A DNA stretch of 59,245 nucleotides from Candidatus Rokuibacteriota bacterium (GTDB lineage Bacteria > Methylomirabilota > Methylomirabilia > Rokubacteriales > CSP1-6). This document shows, one piece after another, positions 4,164 to 27,200 of this stretch. Position numbers and translations under genes: made by a program. A model generated the notes under the pieces. The model saw only the letters and a program-made list of their open reading frames with translations. It was not told the origin of the DNA and did no database searches. Numbering within the stretch: position 1 is the first letter of the stretch; the number at the start of each line of letters is the position of its first letter. Location of the stretch: assembly GCA_003221615.1 (NCBI GenBank), contig QHSQ01000104.1, positions 1 through 59,245 of the forward strand, written 5' to 3'.

Positions 4164-5222
4164 ATGCCGGACGTGCTGTACGTTGGCCTGCAGGATGACG
4201 ACAAGATCGTGCGCTTCGATATCGACGCCGGCAGCGGCAAGCTCGCGCCCCGTGGCGAAATGCCGGCCGCCGGCGCGCCGTCAGTCTTCGCGCTGAGCCC
4301 GGACCGGCGCGTCCTGTATGTCGGCTATCGCGGGACGCCGGCCATCGAGAGCTGTCGCATCGACTCGGCCAGCGGCGCCTTGACGTCGCTCGGGCGCGTC
4401 GCGACCGAGCATGCGCCGACCTATCTGGCTTCCGACCGAGCCGGCAAGTACCTCCTGTCGGCCCACTACCAGGGTGGCTACGCGGCCGTGCATCCGCTCG
4501 GACGCGACGGCGCGGTGAGCGGGCCGGCGCTCGACCGGCAGAACACCGCCCCGGGAGCGCACGCAATCCTGACCGACCCGTCGAACCGCTTCGCCTTCGT
4601 GCCGCACATCGCCCGGCAGAACGACAACGTCCTGGAGCCGCCGAAAAACATCCCCGGCCCGAATTTCATCGCGCAGTTTCGGTTCGACGCGGCCACCGGA
4701 CGGTTGAGCCCCAACGCGCCATTCAAACTCGATCCGCCCGGGCCGATCGGACCGCGGCACTACTGCTTCCATCCCACGCTCGATCTCGTCTACTTCTCCG
4801 ACGAGCAGGGGTGCAGCGTAACGGCTTACAGGGTCGATCGTTCCTCCGGCACTCTCTCCGCCGTGGAAACGATCCCCTCGCTGCCCGAGGGTGTGACCGT
4901 GCGCAATACTTGTTCGCAGATCTATCTGACGCCGCCGGGCCGCTTCCTCTATGTCGGCAACCGCGGCCATAACAGCATCGCCGGGTTCGCCGTCGATCCG
5001 GCGACCGGGCGCCTGACACGAGCCGGGCATGCGCCGACCGAGGCGGTCCCGACCGCGTTCGGTCTCGATTCGAGCGGGACGTTCCTGTACGCCGCGGGAA
5101 CGGCGTCCGGACGTCTGGCCTCGTATCGGCTCAATAGTGAGACCGGCGCGCTGACCCCGCTGGAAACCTACACGGTTGGACGGCGGCCCGCGGCGGTGCT
5201 GGCGATCCCTCTCGGCCGCTGA
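4164..5222 (+). CDS. Lactonase family beta-propeller protein (YbhE/Pgl-like)
   Basis: A 352-residue seven-bladed beta-propeller of the 6-phosphogluconolactonase/carboxymuconate cyclase family (COG2706). Repeated blades show motifs such as LSPDRRVLYVGYRG (residues ~45-58), TPPGRFLYVGNRGHNS and DSSGTFLYAAG. E. coli YbhE hydrolyses 6-phosphogluconolactone, but most members are uncharacterised. There is no signal peptide, so it should be cytoplasmic. A strong ribosome site (ACAGGAGGAGCGAC) precedes the ATG at 4164. The last 67 bp and the following 37 bp are repeated, 89% identical, at 6666-6769, which marks this gene as one edge of a past rearrangement. Confidence 0.85.
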   Translation: MPDVLYVGLQDDDKIVRFDIDAGSGKLAPRGEMPAAGAPSVFALSPDRRVLYVGYRGTPAIESCRIDSASGALTSLGRVATEHAPTYLASDRAGKYLLSAHYQGGYAAVHPLGRDGAVSGPALDRQNTAPGAHAILTDPSNRFAFVPHIARQNDNVLEPPKNIPGPNFIAQFRFDAATGRLSPNAPFKLDPPGPIGPRHYCFHPTLDLVYFSDEQGCSVTAYRVDRSSGTLSAVETIPSLPEGVTVRNTCSQIYLTPPGRFLYVGNRGHNSIAGFAVDPATGRLTRAGHAPTEAVPTAFGLDSSGTFLYAAGTASGRLASYRLNSETGALTPLETYTVGRRPAAVLAIPLGR

Positions 5223-22255: not shown

Positions 22256-23923
22256 CTATTGCTTCTTCAGCTCCGCGACGGAGCGGAGCGGCGCGCCGTC
22301 GGCGCGGAGGAGCGGCAAGGTGACCGACCGCGAGTACCACCCCGGGATCGAGGCTGAGTGATTCCCGGCGCCGCCGGCCACGACGACGATGATGTCGTCC
22401 GGCTTCTCGACGATCCGCAACGACCGCCGACCGTCCCGTTCCTCGATACAGTTGCCGCGCCACACGCTCAAGACGTCCGCGTTGCTCCGGCCGATCTGCT
22501 CGAAGGGGATACGGGCGTGCTCGAACAGGGCCAGACGCACCCGCTGCTTGTCGAAGCCCTGCTTCGCCGCGAGCGAGGCATGCTCGGGGCCGAGGACGAT
22601 GAGCGCCTCCTGGCTCATGAACATGTTGTTGGAGCCGGAGACGGCGACGGCCCGCGCGATCGTTTCGAGCATCTCGTTGGCGGTCTTGCTCTTCTCGATA
22701 ATGTTGGCGGGCGCGGCACCGCCGAAGGCGGTGACGGTGCTCGTCTCCGCTTCGAAGCCACGCTCGACGTGAAGCGGCGCCCAGGGGTTGTCCGCGTCGT
22801 TCTCGGCGAAGCAGCAGGTGTACTTGGCGGGGTTGCCGAGCGTCGACTTGTCGGCCTGCTGCGGCACGCCGCCGCCGATCGTCGTCATGATCAGCCGAAT
22901 CGCGCGACCGATGGTCGCGTTGGCCCGGAATCCTGGACCGAACAAATTCCCCCGCCCATTGATCCCGATCTCGCGAGCAATCGGCCCGTTGACGATAAGC
23001 ACCGGGCTGGCCGGGTTCGTCGTCCCTTGGATGCCGTACAGGTTGAACGGCTTGCTGAGGATGGCCTTCACCGCCGTCACGACGAGGGGGAAATACTCCG
23101 GTTTGCACCCGGCCATCACCGCGTTGACGGCCAGCGTGGCGATCGTCGCCTCTCCCCAGCGCGGCGGCATCGGACCTAGCGACGAGCATGGGTCGACCTC
23201 GCTGAAGGCGAGCATCTGTGCAACCCGGTCCTCGGTAGGTGGCACGATCGGCAGCCCGTCGGTCCAGCCTTCGCTGGCGAACCGCTCGAAGATCGCCTCC
23301 GGGTCATCCGCCACGGTGATGCGCTCGGCGACGGCCACGGCGCCCGGCCGATTCGCAGCCGCGGCGGCATGCAGTCCGGCGGTTGCGTACGCGCCCGTCT
23401 CGGTGGCGATCTCCACGATCGCCGCCATCACGGGCTCGGCCCGCCCACGCATGTCCCGGTGAGGCACGCTGACGATCGGATGCCGCACGTACAGGGCCGG
23501 AAGGCTCGGCTGGCCGAGACTTGTCGTGACGATACCGTACAGCGTCCGGAATTCGTCAGTGACAATCGTCGCGGTCGGAACGCCGCGCTTCTCGAGTTCG
23601 ATGCTGTCGTGGACACTCCACGACGTGCACGATCCTCAATCGGCGATACCGTTGATCACCAGGTCGCATTCGCGCGCCGCCGCCTCGAGCATTTCGTCGG
23701 GTATGGGGAGCGCCGCGGCCTTCTTGTCGTACCGGATAGTTCTGGACACGCCGTGCGCGCTCCTGAGCAGCTCCTCGACGCGATCCAGGAACGGGCGGGT
23801 GCCGGACTTCGAATTGTTGAGGAGACCGACGACTCGACCCTCGAGCGTTGGAACGCGCTTCGCCAACGGCACGGCGTTCCCGGCGACTCCAGCGACCGGC
23901 GCGAGCAATTCGATCGTGGCCAT
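22256..23923 (-). CDS. UGSC family selenoprotein (Sec at residue 96), fused to a large C-terminal domain
   Basis: A single 555-residue frame interrupted only by TGA at 23638-23636. Read as selenocysteine, it gives ...INGIAD-U-GSCTSWSVHDS..., the UGSC motif of a described selenoprotein family. U96 and C99 form a U-x-x-C redox pair. The N-terminal domain also has VVGLLNNSKSG (residues ~31-41) and, after the motif, ELEKRGVPTATIVTDEF. A SECIS-like hairpin lies 11 nt past the TGA. The start ATG 23923 has GAGAGGTG upstream. Residues ~190-555 (GWTDGLPIVPPTEDRV..., KYTCCFAEN, GGAGNHSASIPGWYSRSV) form a conserved-looking domain I cannot name. A thiol/selenol redox role is expected but the substrate is unknown. 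It is divergent from an ABC importer. Standard gene callers would split it into two false genes at 23636-23923 and 22256-23488. Confidence 0.88.
23602..23638 (-). promoter_or_regulatory. Sec UGA codon and bacterial SECIS-like hairpin
   Basis: On the mRNA, UGA (23638-23636) is followed by 11 nt, then a perfect 7-bp stem GUCGUGG (23624-23618) / CCACGAC (23612-23606) closing a 5-nt loop AGUGU. An outer UGC/GCA pairing (23629-23627 with 23604-23602) extends it through a small internal loop. Loop position (18-23 nt after UGA) and a GU in the loop fit known bacterial SECIS elements read by SelB. Confidence 0.75.
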
Positions 23924-23996
23924 ATCCGAGCACCTCTCTTTCCAACGACGCAGTGGTCGCTCTCTGCTTACGGCATCTTGAGGCTCTCCGCAACCC

Positions 23997-24025
23997 TTGA
24001 CAGCCGCGGGTGGCTCACAAATAAT
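23997..24025 (+). promoter_or_regulatory. Sigma-70-type promoter for the MalEFG-type importer
   Basis: Perfect -35 TTGACA (23997-24002), 17-bp spacer, -10 AATAAT (24020-24025). It lies 69 bp before the binding-protein ATG and is one of the few A/T-rich spots in the area. Confidence 0.65.
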
Positions 24026-24093
24026 CACGCCACTTCGAGACGTGACGCCCGGGAGTACCCATGATGGCGAGAGCCGCGAGAGGAGACACGTCC

Positions 24094-25389
24094 ATGCAGC
24101 GCATCACTCGGCGGAGCTTCCTCCGGACCACCGGTCTCGTGGGCACCTCGGCCGTCCTTGCCGACGGGCTCCTCGGCGCGGCACGCGCGGGCAAGCCGAT
24201 CAACTTTGCCGGCTGGGTTTTCAAGCCGGACACGGTCCAGGACTACGTCAACTTCTACAACCAGAAGCTCAGCGGCCAGGTGAAGTACGAGGCCATTCCG
24301 TGGGCCCAGTACCATCCGACGATGGAGACTCGCGCCTTCGGCGGCGAGATCTTCGACGTCATGTACTGCGCCCACAACTTCCGGCAGCGCTGGTACGAGA
24401 ACGGTCTCGTCCGACCGCTCGACGACCTGCCCGGGATCGACGAGCTGAAGAAGAAGATGAACCCGCAGAACCTCGAGAGCCTCAAGGCCAAGGACGGCAA
24501 GCTCGCCGGCGTGCCGTACTTCACGAGCCTCTTCATCCTCATCCACAACGAGCCGATGCTTCAACAGGCAGGGATCAAGGCGCCGGCGAAGAGCTGGGAC
24601 GAGCTGGTCGAGCACAGCCTGAAGTTGAAAAAGGACAAGGTCAGCGACTATCCGTTCCTTCCGAACTGGAACGTGAGCCCCTCCGGCACCATGCCGCAAT
24701 TCATGACCGACTCCTTCTCGGAGGGCGCGAACGTCTTCGACGCCAAGAACCGGGTCATCGTAGACCAGGAGCCCGGGGTCGCCCGCGCCATGGAACGCTG
24801 GCAGAAAGTCTGGAAGGCCGAGCTGGTCAATCCGGAGGTGCTGACCAAGACCTCCTCGACGGACACGCACCGCCTCTTCTGGACCGGCCGCTATGCCTAC
24901 CACACGAACCACTCGTACTACCTCAAGACCATCGCTGGTGAGCCCGAGAACTCGAAGCTCGCGCCCAAGAAGGCCAAGATGACGATGTACCCCGGGACCG
25001 GTCAGACCTACATGTGGACTGACTCCTATACGATCAACGCGAAGACGAAGATCCTGGACGATGCCTGGAAGCTCGTTCGTTTCCTCGGCGGCAACCTCAC
25101 GGGCGATTGGTACGTCCAGCGGCAGTGGTGCTTGATCTCCGGTCTCGACAACCCCTACCCCGAGATGTACGAGCACCCGGAGATCATCGCCTCGTACGAC
25201 CGCTGGGTGGATCTGAAGCTCCTTCGAAAGCAGTACGAGAAGGGCCGGGTCATCGCGGCCTACAAGGAGCCCTGGTACAGCGAGTACGACGTCAAGGCGG
25301 TGCCGATCGTTCACAACCTCATTCGCGGCGGCATGACCGTTCCCCAGGGGCTCAAGGAGCTCGTGAAGCTCCAGAAGTCGCTGGAGTAG
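24094..25389 (+). CDS. ABC transporter substrate-binding protein, family 1 (sugar class), Tat-exported
   Basis: A 431-residue extracellular solute-binding protein. The start MQRITRRSFLRTTG carries a twin-arginine signal (RRSFLR) followed by a hydrophobic stretch and an A-R-A cleavage region, so it is exported folded. The body has typical family-1 segments: GGEIFDVMYCAHN, KDGKLAGVPYFTS and a long C-terminal helical part. It binds a sugar or polyol-like ligand and hands it to the two permeases that follow. The ATG at 24094 is preceded by GAGAGGAG; an upstream ATG at 24061 would place the RR motif too far in. No ATPase gene follows, so the complex must borrow a MsmK/UgpC-type ATPase from elsewhere. 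Confidence 0.9.
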   Translation: MQRITRRSFLRTTGLVGTSAVLADGLLGAARAGKPINFAGWVFKPDTVQDYVNFYNQKLSGQVKYEAIPWAQYHPTMETRAFGGEIFDVMYCAHNFRQRWYENGLVRPLDDLPGIDELKKKMNPQNLESLKAKDGKLAGVPYFTSLFILIHNEPMLQQAGIKAPAKSWDELVEHSLKLKKDKVSDYPFLPNWNVSPSGTMPQFMTDSFSEGANVFDAKNRVIVDQEPGVARAMERWQKVWKAELVNPEVLTKTSSTDTHRLFWTGRYAYHTNHSYYLKTIAGEPENSKLAPKKAKMTMYPGTGQTYMWTDSYTINAKTKILDDAWKLVRFLGGNLTGDWYVQRQWCLISGLDNPYPEMYEHPEIIASYDRWVDLKLLRKQYEKGRVIAAYKEPWYSEYDVKAVPIVHNLIRGGMTVPQGLKELVKLQKSLE

Positions 25390-25392
25390 GCG

Positions 25393-26331
25393 CTGACGGT
25401 CCGGCGTTTCCGACTCTCCGAGCGATGGTTCGCCTCCATCCTGATTCTCCCGGCTTTCCTCGTGATCTCCCTTGTCGTCGGCTTCCCGCTCGTCTACTCG
25501 CTCTGGATGAGCTTCGCCGACGTGAACCTGCTCCGCACGACGGGCCCCGCGCTGGAGATTTCCGGCCTGCGCATCCCGTTCTTCCGCTATGTCGGGGTCC
25601 AGAACTATGCCCGGCTTCTCGCCGATCCCCTCTACTGGGACTCGTTCTGGCGGACGGCCTACTTCGTGGGCGCTTTCGTCGTCGAGACCACGGTGGTCGG
25701 GCTCGGGATGGCCCTGGTTCTTCAAGAGCGTTTCCTGGGGCGGCCGGTGATGCGGAGCCTGCTCCTCATCCCTTGGTCGCTCTCCCGCGTCGTCGTAGGG
25801 CTTCTCTGGATCGGCCTCCTCGACGTCGAGTTCGGTGCGCTGAACGGCCTCCTCTACAAGGCCGGGCTCATCGACAGCTACATCTCGTTCCTCAAATCTG
25901 GCTTCAGCGCGCTCAACGTCCTCGTCTCCGTTTACATGTGGAACCAGGCGCCGTTCGCGACGCTTTTGTTGCTCGCGGGGATGCAATCCATTCCCACGGA
26001 GCTCTACATGGCGGCCGAGGCGGACGGTGCCGGCTACTGGCAGCGCTTACGCTACGTGACGCTGCCGGCCTTGCGCGGGATTCTCTTCCTCGTCCTGGTC
26101 GTGTCCACGGTCAACGGGTTCCTCATGCTCGACCTGATCTACATGCTGACGATGGGCGGGCCCGCCAACGAGACGACGACGATCTCGTGGCTCGGCTTCC
26201 AGACAGCGTTTCAGTTCTTCAAATTCGGGCCCGGCACGGCGATTCTGTACACGCTTACGGTCTTGTGCCTCATTCTCACCGTGGTGTACCACAAGGTCGT
26301 GTTCCGCAGGCTCGAGGCCGAGGAGGTTTGA
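25393..26331 (+). CDS. ABC transporter permease, MalF/UgpA type (probable CTG start)
   Basis: A 312-residue inner-membrane permease when started at the CTG at 25393. Residues 1-35 then read LTVRRFRLSERWFASILILP..., the usual charged N terminus plus complete first membrane helix. The first conventional start, GTG at 25462, would cut away half of that helix, so I prefer the upstream start; GGAGTAGG at the end of the preceding gene is well placed as ribosome site. The EAA loop appears as AAEADGAGYWQRLRYVTLPA near residues 204-223. It is in the same frame as the preceding stop (tag, 25387) and ends in TGA overlapping the next ATG by one base. Confidence 0.88.
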   Translation: MTVRRFRLSERWFASILILPAFLVISLVVGFPLVYSLWMSFADVNLLRTTGPALEISGLRIPFFRYVGVQNYARLLADPLYWDSFWRTAYFVGAFVVETTVVGLGMALVLQERFLGRPVMRSLLLIPWSLSRVVVGLLWIGLLDVEFGALNGLLYKAGLIDSYISFLKSGFSALNVLVSVYMWNQAPFATLLLLAGMQSIPTELYMAAEADGAGYWQRLRYVTLPALRGILFLVLVVSTVNGFLMLDLIYMLTMGGPANETTTISWLGFQTAFQFFKFGPGTAILYTLTVLCLILTVVYHKVVFRRLEAEEV

Positions 26332-27200
26332 TGATGCCCGGGGCGATCAAGCGACGAGCGAGCCGGGCGCTCGTTTACACGCTCCTCGTCGGCGTTGTCC
26401 TTTGGCTCGTCGGTCCGTTCATCTGGCTTTTCGTCACCAGCATCTCGTATCAGCGCAACCTCCTGGCCCGCCCGCTCGCGCTCATCCCACCCGAGATCAC
26501 TCTCGACAATTACCGGATGGTCCTCGGTATGCTCCGCTTCCACGCCGAGGGGCAGGCCGCCAAGATCCTGCCCTCCATGCTCAACAGCCTCGTGGTCGCG
26601 GCGGCGGTCACGCTCGTGAACCTGGCAGTCGGCACAACAGCCGGCTATGCCTACGCCCGTTTCCGTGTGCCGCTGAAAGCGTTCTCGCTCTTCGCGCTCC
26701 TGTTCACCCGGATGCTGCCGACGGTCGTCTTGATCCCGGCGTACTTCCTCCTCTTCAAAGCGCTCGGGCTCCAGAACACGCTGACCGGCCTCGTGCTAGC
26801 CTACTGCTCGTTCACGCTCCCGTTCACCGTCTGGATCATGAAGGCGTACTTCGAGACGATCCCGGCCGACCTCGACAAGAGCGCGCTCGTGGACGGGTGC
26901 AACCGCCTCCAGGCCTACTACCGGGTCGTTCTTCCCGTCTCGGGCCCCGGACTGGTTGCCGCCGGGGCTTTCACGTTCATGCTGTGCTGGAACGAGTTCA
27001 TCGTGGCGCAGATTCTGAACACCAAGCTCGGCATGACGACACTCCCGCCCGTGATCGCCGGCATGAACGCGCAGATCAACATCGACTACTCGGTGATCGC
27101 CGCCTCGGGCTTTCTCGCCGCGCTCCCCGCCGTGCTCCTCGTCCTCGGCTTTCAGAGATACCTGGTCCAGGGCCTGACGGCGGGTTCGGTCAAGGGGTAG
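26331..27200 (+). CDS. ABC transporter permease, MalG/UgpE type
   Basis: A 289-residue permease with the MalG layout: an N-terminal helix (LVYTLLVGVVLWLVGPFIWLF) and a periplasmic loop SITLDNY-like segment (ITLDNYRMVL). The EAA motif is SALVDGCNRLQAYYRVVLPV near residues 184-203, and FMLCWNEFI begins a late helix. It forms the translocation pore with the MalF-type partner. ATG-ATG at 26331/26334 follows GGAGG; the first overlaps the upstream stop (TGATG), which suggests translational coupling. No ATPase gene follows; instead a 195-bp gap leads to an unrelated secreted protein. Confidence 0.92.
   Translation: MMPGAIKRRASRALVYTLLVGVVLWLVGPFIWLFVTSISYQRNLLARPLALIPPEITLDNYRMVLGMLRFHAEGQAAKILPSMLNSLVVAAAVTLVNLAVGTTAGYAYARFRVPLKAFSLFALLFTRMLPTVVLIPAYFLLFKALGLQNTLTGLVLAYCSFTLPFTVWIMKAYFETIPADLDKSALVDGCNRLQAYYRVVLPVSGPGLVAAGAFTFMLCWNEFIVAQILNTKLGMTTLPPVIAGMNAQINIDYSVIAASGFLAALPAVLLVLGFQRYLVQGLTAGSVKG

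Follow-up and report, generated by a model that had tools for sequence, protein, structure and literature searches.

A TGA-interrupted gene in a Rokubacteria genome as a probable two-domain UGSC selenoprotein with a widespread partner domain

A minus-strand gene in a 59,245-nucleotide stretch of Candidatus Rokuibacteriota DNA (the window) is interrupted by an in-frame TGA, which raises the question of whether it is broken or encodes a single selenium-containing protein, and of what such a protein might do. The gene (22256..23923, TAG included) starts with an ATG at 23923 and ends with a TAG at 22258-22256. The only internal stop in its 555-codon frame is the TGA at codon 96 (23638-23636), and the two same-frame segments that it separates form one continuous 555-residue protein once it is read as selenocysteine (Sec, U). 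The initial annotation, made from the DNA sequence alone, had proposed this arrangement, and the motifs that it cited, LLNNSK, DUGSCTSWSVHD and ELEKRGVPT, are present in the translation with U. Its measurements need small corrections: the frame does stay open past the TGA, for 459 rather than 460 codons, and the C-terminal domain that it left unnamed spans approximately residues 206-536, the 331 residues matched by a profile of relatives, rather than 365 residues. It also foresaw that automatic annotation would produce two wrong genes, and the list of open reading frames contains both (23636-24028, 130 aa, and 22256-23488, 410 aa). The apparently broken gene is very probably one intact two-domain selenium protein.

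When the joined protein is searched, its N-terminal part (residues 6-174; 23402..23908, minus strand) belongs to the UGSC family, as initially suggested: it matches PF24696 with E 1.1e-48 and 166.1 bits against a cut-off of 25, and NF041046 with 140.2 bits against a cut-off of 125. The motif U96-G-S-C99 is present, with its Sec codon at 23636..23638 on the minus strand, and TGA occupies the equivalent motif position in homologues. A linker, residues 175-205 (23309..23401, minus strand), with its minimum of model confidence at 184-192, leads to the C-terminal domain (CTD). In a comparison with the closest relative (L025), differences fall at third codon positions in 23 of 31 cases before the TGA and, after it, in 14 of 21 in the remaining UGSC domain and 68 of 108 in the CTD, with fewer (11 of 23) in the linker. 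The changed codons are synonymous in 22 of 28 cases before the TGA, and after it in 10 of 19 (UGSC part), 7 of 18 (linker) and 61 of 104 (CTD). Within the named genome collection, the closest locus is that of Candidatus Rokuibacteriota AR31, whose CTD is 87% identical. The strength of the family match, the third-position-rich differences on both sides and the recurrence of the TGA in all of the UGSC matches above cut-off in the source genome thus place the frame beyond chance.

The source genome (7.24 Mb, 596 contigs) has a completeness of 96.5% and a contamination of 8.6%, so absences from it are uncertain. The four genes for Sec synthesis and insertion, which the initial annotation had pointed to as the natural check, are all present, selC as a tRNA-Sec. 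On contig C263, selA adjoins selB, and the tRNA-Sec lies approximately 1.1 kb from selA (69.8 bits, anticodon TCA; ARAGORN reports tRNA-SeC(tca)); selD is above cut-off on C106. The selD match (L126) itself contains one in-frame TGA, and is probably a selenoprotein as well. Seven UGSC matches in the genome are above cut-off, each with exactly one in-frame TGA, and in one of the seven U-S-T-C replaces U-G-S-C. An eighth piece, on C572, is weak and under the cut-off. That contig (positions 1-618; L005, L008) carries a UGSC gene at its end with an adjoining reversed partial match to the same end, which may be an assembly fold-back. Within the order, UGSC occurs in 60 of 60 genomes searched, with one TGA each among the matches listed. 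Judged from sequence, the TGA at 23638-23636 is almost certainly read as Sec, and the gene is almost certainly that of a selenoprotein.

A bacterial SECIS element directly after the UGA, also anticipated at the outset, is present as judged from stem pairing and conservation. The predicted hairpin core (23606..23624, minus strand), defined by folding and family-wide conservation, consists of an 8-bp stem and a GUG apical loop at 23616-23614, 19 nt downstream of the UGA. The 44 nt from the UGA have a minimum free energy of -18.2 kcal/mol (z -2.55; shuffles mean -11.9, sd 2.5), which is equalled by 8 of 200 shuffles and is modest on its own. The family comparison draws on 81 Sec sites (this gene, five paralogues, Acidovorax and genome loci with UGSC above 110 bits), one of which is too short at a contig end; the USTC site (L006) was left out, and 79 sequences are distinct. 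In these 79, the 8-bp stem is paired in 586 of 632 cells, and at least seven of the eight pairs form in 68, whereas 200 synonymous shuffles give 11.2 on average and never more than 22. One stem pair is G-C in 66 and C-G in 11, a two-sided change. The loop position is GT in 74 of the 79 distinct Sec sites versus 0 of 9 distinct Cys homologues, and 63 of 66 loop Ser codons are AGT, a triplet that accounts for 89 of 1268 Ser codons across CTD genes. In minimum-energy folds, a loop starts 19 nt after the UGA in 62 and 18 nt after it in 11 of 80 Sec sites; the corresponding figures for ten Cys sites are none and three. A looser criterion (loop 14-37 nt after the codon, G in the first two bases) was dropped: it accepts 80 of 80 Sec sites and also 7 of 10 Cys sites. 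In the nine distinct Cys homologues, 49 of 72 stem cells are paired, again more than in their synonymous shuffles (5.4 pairs versus 4.2, sd 0.5), so some of the pairing is either carried along by the protein sequence or vestigial. A search of the window at Rfam gathering thresholds returns no match. SECIS-directed readthrough of the UGA as Sec is nevertheless strongly supported for this gene.

The gene could instead be truly split or decayed, with the TGA a nonsense mutation or sequencing error and the open reading frames remnants or separate genes. The single point in favour is the TGA itself; annotation does split such genes, as on a plasmid of Paracoccus ferrooxidans, where the UGSC gene (L176:4932-5501) is annotated as two hypothetical fragments flanking the UGA (TGA at 5217), with selB approximately 4 kb away. 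However, L025 carries the same TGA, and the changes to either side of it fall mainly at third positions; the codon recurs in seven of seven UGSC matches above cut-off in the source genome and across the family together with a conserved SECIS, and the genome has the Sec machinery. On these grounds a pseudogene or sequencing error was rejected, and a true split is scarcely credible.

The family itself has been described. The 2008 Global Ocean Sampling selenoproteome (PMC2398784), in its accessible text, lists a "UGSC-containing protein", ranks it first in frequency of use among the selenoprotein families of non-marine water samples, proposes a thioredoxin (Trx)-like fold and assigns no function. 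It also mentions a fusion of UGSC to a conserved domain, "Unknown_1", so the long fusion, initially thought to be possibly undescribed, is not novel as such; "Unknown_1" may be the same domain as the CTD. The searchable literature (the accessible text of PMC2398784 and PMC13188914, and later surveys and reviews, with subscription papers and supplements outside this scope) contains no function for UGSC and no link to GrdB/PrdB. The fusion was thus known in outline beforehand, and the new element is the unnamed, near-constant partner domain.

The CTD comprises residues 206-555 (22259..23308, minus strand), as delimited by alignments, conservation and the structural model. Its conserved motifs are DGLP, NAVMAGC (containing Cys273), GR, PW and GG, and near-invariant residues include D222, G223, N267, A271, G272, C273, G313, G339, R340, E374, W381 and G517. 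Cys273 is kept in 82 of 84 CTDs. The domain is indeed without a name: neither its own sequence nor 58 members scanned singly have a convincing Pfam or NCBIfam match, the strays among the members being one NCBIfam match at E 0.003 and a best Pfam match at E 0.018. A sequence search of the PDB with the CTD finds nothing at E 10, and one with the full-protein profile finds weak, scattered matches (best E 0.2). The full two-domain model is confident (pLDDT 94.1, pTM 0.93) and has no Foldseek match in the PDB at E 0.001. The pTM of this prediction suggests a defined packing of the two domains.

The CTD proves to be a widespread and near-constant partner of UGSC in the best 80 of at least 506 loci, a relationship that is new here. 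The alignment scan confirmed at least 506 stretches, of which the best 80 loci were kept, a sample biased to relatives of this CTD. Matches above 200 bits (CTD) and 110 bits (UGSC) were counted, and 5 of 96 CTD and 4 of 83 UGSC matches at or below these values were dropped. Among the resulting 91 CTD places, UGSC is fused in 23, encoded by a separate gene in 57, in the same frame with an intervening TGA in two and not found within approximately 1.5 kb in nine. It is therefore in the same gene, or nearby on the same strand, in 82 of 91 (23 plus 59), and two adjacent genes are commoner than fusion. The 57 separate genes lie on the same strand within approximately 1.5 kb, 49 before the CTD and eight after it. 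Of the nine CTDs without a UGSC partner, five lie no more than 160 bases from an end of the fetched sequence and four are from Poribacteria, for which a sensitive search likewise failed to reveal UGSC. Within the UGSC match of the 82 partnered CTDs there is a TGA in 76 and a Cys in five (CGSC in L026, L076, L078 and L087, CGTS in one of L037); in L082 the match is split and the TGA is on the other piece. Homologues in which the two parts are always separate genes, with a different residue at this position, had been named initially as the pattern that would speak against the reading; in these 80 loci 23 of 91 are fused and Sec is usual.

The source genome has eight full-length CTDs, seven of them with UGSC. 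The domains are fused on C37, C83, C147 and C595; on C572 the CTD follows UGSC in another frame, and on C234 and C329 it precedes UGSC. The eighth, on C442, lacks a UGSC match, and two CTD pieces lie at a contig end on C262. Within the order, CTD matches occur in 59 of 59 genomes searched, up to 14 each, and genomes have 1 to 12 UGSC (among the matches listed) and 1 to 14 CTD matches. A tblastn search of plasmids with the whole protein gives 24 records, some matching the CTD alone, and these include haloarchaea, Roseovarius, Paracoccus, Acidovorax, Variovorax, Neorhizobium and Arthrobacter. Plasmids of Sporomusa termitida (L023:8320-10044) and Vibrio europaeus (L024:6734-8419) encode fused UGSC-CTD proteins with GDMGTS and ADMGTS, respectively, in place of DUGSC. 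Neither protein has Sec or Cys at either position, and aconitase X and DUF126 genes are nearby in both cases.

The UGSC model (pLDDT 92.9) consists of alternating strands and helices, five beta-alpha units in all, with Sec96 immediately before the third helix. By the strand and helix order of this confident model, the domain looks Rossmann-like. A thioredoxin fold was considered and set aside, since the predicted order of strands and helices differs. Foldseek returns seven matches at E 0.001 or better (query TM 0.43-0.56), all weak and none of them thioredoxins; they are Bacillus beta-N-hexosaminidase entries and one IF2 model. Sequence searches of the PDB with the domain give weak, scattered matches (best E 0.038). 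The modelled order and the Foldseek matches together disfavour the Trx-like fold given in the accessible text of PMC2398784. Every one of the 78 rows of alignment A3, which were picked as UGSC matches and have U written as C, carries U or C at the first motif position; at the second, 73 have C and five have S. There are UGTS, UGSS and CGTS variants without the second Cys in place. An Arthrobacter UGSC protein (L022:10024-10839) has a C-terminal extension of approximately 100 residues with a CxxC pair, NifU-like by eye, and its gene is adjoined by CTD, thioredoxin and thioredoxin reductase genes.

GrdB carries a U-G-T-C motif, which offers a lead for comparison. A search of the phylum with PF07355 is positive for 68 of 95 genomes, a minority of them with full-length matches. 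At 13 full-length loci the model stops just before the TGA, and the frame continues as U-G-[TS]-[CSG]-[TN]-R (one is cut by the stretch), followed by E(I/L/F)E..G and mostly [IL]P; only six of the 13 sequences listed have the second Cys. In hhalign, UGSC aligns to Sec-containing GrdB at 94.2% (P 1.1e-7) over 93 columns, with Sec on Sec, and the alignment runs on through E..G[IV]P to HP. The score of 56.8 compares with at most 31.2 in 60 column shuffles, and the reversed profile reaches 0.3%. With the four motif columns masked, the match falls to 50.3% and a score of 36.6, which is above the shuffles and not decisive. Against GrdB and PrdB combined the values are 93.7% and 51.9, where 100 shuffles reach no more than 23.9; masking the motif lowers the score to 34.5, and PrdB alone, unmasked, gives 46%. 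The active-site half of UGSC is thus probably homologous to GrdB/PrdB, though this is not proven.

This relationship does not extend to the whole system. PF07355 does not match the 555-residue protein at E up to 1, and attempts to align the CTD as GrdE (0.4%) or as part of GrdB (19%; 17.5% with A1) were rejected. The source genome was searched for GrdA, GrdE and full GrdB without a match. Since the CTD is not GrdE and none of these components was matched, the classical glycine-reductase cycle does not apply here. Two PrdB-like frames of the source genome continue across a TGA in UPxC (L163, C145:4000-7500; L164, C393:38000-41000); PF07355 matches only their pre-Sec part, and both are probably selenoproteins. 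Other genomes of the genus have Sec-containing GrdB beside GrdE (L132-L137, L145, L146, L151-L162). GrdA is found in seven and GrdE in eight of nine genus genomes, and neither in the source genome, so the glycine/betaine-type reductase appears to be patchy within one Rokubacteria genus.

The genomic neighbourhood is less constant than the partnership. A divergent ABC importer, a solute-binding protein and two permeases by Pfam (24061..27200, plus strand), had drawn attention initially, and is best treated as context only: its solute-binding protein and first permease match L025 (93%) and none of 86 other stretches (79 genome loci and seven own-genome stretches besides L025, at E 1e-10). The Pfam neighbours in the window are Bac_luciferase, Oxidored_FMN, HpaB, SBP_bac_5, the ABC importer and a Cyclase-family protein, and the neighbourhood looks catabolic. 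Seven of these proteins were compared with 87 stretches: the HpaB and luciferase-like proteins have no match in them, and distant relatives of SBP_bac_5, Oxidored_FMN and Cyclase occur in three, one and one of these. Neighbours of UGSC-CTD loci thus vary. The commonest among 134 first-neighbour open reading frames scanned (141 selected by a mechanical caller, seven long ones omitted) are TctC receptors, with a raw count of 26; such receptors are very numerous in some Betaproteobacteria.

Among the 24 plasmid matches, 16 regions were inspected and 14 are annotated, with genes picked by product name. They contain CoA transferases, acyl-CoA dehydrogenases, TRAP and TctC receptors, PEP-mutase and SDR genes. 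In Roseovarius, Variovorax SRS16 and Arthrobacter, a thioredoxin reductase gene (TIGR01292 above cut-off) lies no more than three genes from the pair, in Arthrobacter together with thioredoxin, and V. boronicumulans and Haloterrigena have nearby relatives whose best match is TIGR01292, under the cut-off. Five of the 14 annotated plasmid regions therefore have the reductase or a relative within three genes. At genome loci a relative was detected by tblastn in only 4 of 80, at a distance of up to 250 bases in three. Phosphosulfolactate synthase, PEP mutase and thioredoxin were rejected as recurrent neighbours (tblastn matches at 0, 1 and 0 of 80 genome loci).

Sec is thought to act as a nucleophile in GrdB/PrdB-type reductases. 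It may be that UGSC and the CTD, fused or as two subunits, form one enzyme, a Sec/Cys reductase that acts on small organic acids and is recycled by thioredoxin; this is offered as the leading, though tentative, working model, for which the odds are a little short of even. In it, the CTD would bind a small organic-acid-type substrate, and Sec96, placed where the third helix of the Rossmann-like UGSC domain begins, would attack that substrate as a selenol nucleophile, with reductive cleavage of a C-X bond. Cys99 would then resolve the selenyl intermediate to give a selenylsulfide, and thioredoxin with thioredoxin reductase would regenerate the selenol. Cys273 of the CTD may aid substrate binding or resolution.

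Two other functions would also suit a Sec/Cys protein of this kind. UGSC could be a general thiol/selenol oxidoreductase, peroxidase- or disulfide-reductase-like, active in redox defence, with the CTD positioning it or serving as its protein substrate. The UxxC motif, the thioredoxin reductase neighbours at some loci and the 2008 survey, which in its accessible text (PMC2398784) reads UGSC as a likely Trx-fold redox protein, are consistent with this. However, the modelled strand and helix order is Rossmann-like rather than thioredoxin-like, many of the neighbours are transport and catabolic genes, and the 1 to 12 UGSC and 1 to 14 CTD copies per genome in one order suggest substrate-specific paralogues, which leaves a general oxidoreductase unlikely. 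Alternatively, Sec or Cys could act as nucleophile or base in a non-redox reaction of the isomerase, lyase or hydrolase type, for which thioredoxin would not be needed. The Sporomusa and Vibrio proteins, with Met for Sec and Ser for Cys (DMGTS) and aconitase X and DUF126 genes near both, point in this direction, as do the variants lacking the second Cys and the small number of genome loci with thioredoxin reductase. The two Met/Ser members would be unable to use the proposed Sec/Cys chemistry, and they argue, as sequences, that the UGSC scaffold may also serve without it. Where Sec is preferred to Cys, however, the chemistry is usually redox, and U or C in 78 of 78 and C in 73 of 78 A3 rows at the two positions fit a redox pair, so that a non-redox function is improbable.

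If the reductase model is extended beyond this gene, UGSC and the CTD could represent a widespread two-part class of Sec/Cys reductases in bacteria and haloarchaea. Such a class would pair a GrdB/PrdB-like Sec module with a domain that binds the substrate and has a fold without a PDB counterpart. It would be recycled by thioredoxin, would have multiplied to many copies per genome in Rokubacteria to serve different substrates, and would include a side branch in which both redox residues have been lost. This broader proposal is speculative, and should be held somewhat more loosely than the model for the single enzyme. The partner, the likely fold and the probable relation to GrdB/PrdB nevertheless make UGSC a testable enzyme, and the pair may form a selenium-based enzyme as yet unstudied. 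There is also a practical rule for annotators: a CTD gene beside a short or split open reading frame, as in Paracoccus ferrooxidans, likely marks a hidden selenoprotein.

Among known systems, the closest is the UGSC protein of the 2008 survey (PMC2398784, accessible text), which is of the same family by PF24696 and NF041046 and shares Sec in U-G-S-C, a SECIS and a fusion to an unknown domain; there the fold was suggested to be Trx-like, whereas the present analysis proposes a Rossmann-like fold, a site resembling that of GrdB/PrdB and a near-constant partner. Thioredoxin-fold selenoproteins resemble UGSC in the UxxC motif and in an apparent link to thioredoxin reductase at some loci, but differ from it in the predicted order of strands and helices. 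In GrdB/PrdB (PF07355) the Sec site, U-G-[TS]-x, is similar, with E..G[IL]P after it and an HP-like stretch further on. However, UGSC lacks the GrdB N-terminal part and any PF07355 match, and its partner is the CTD rather than GrdE.
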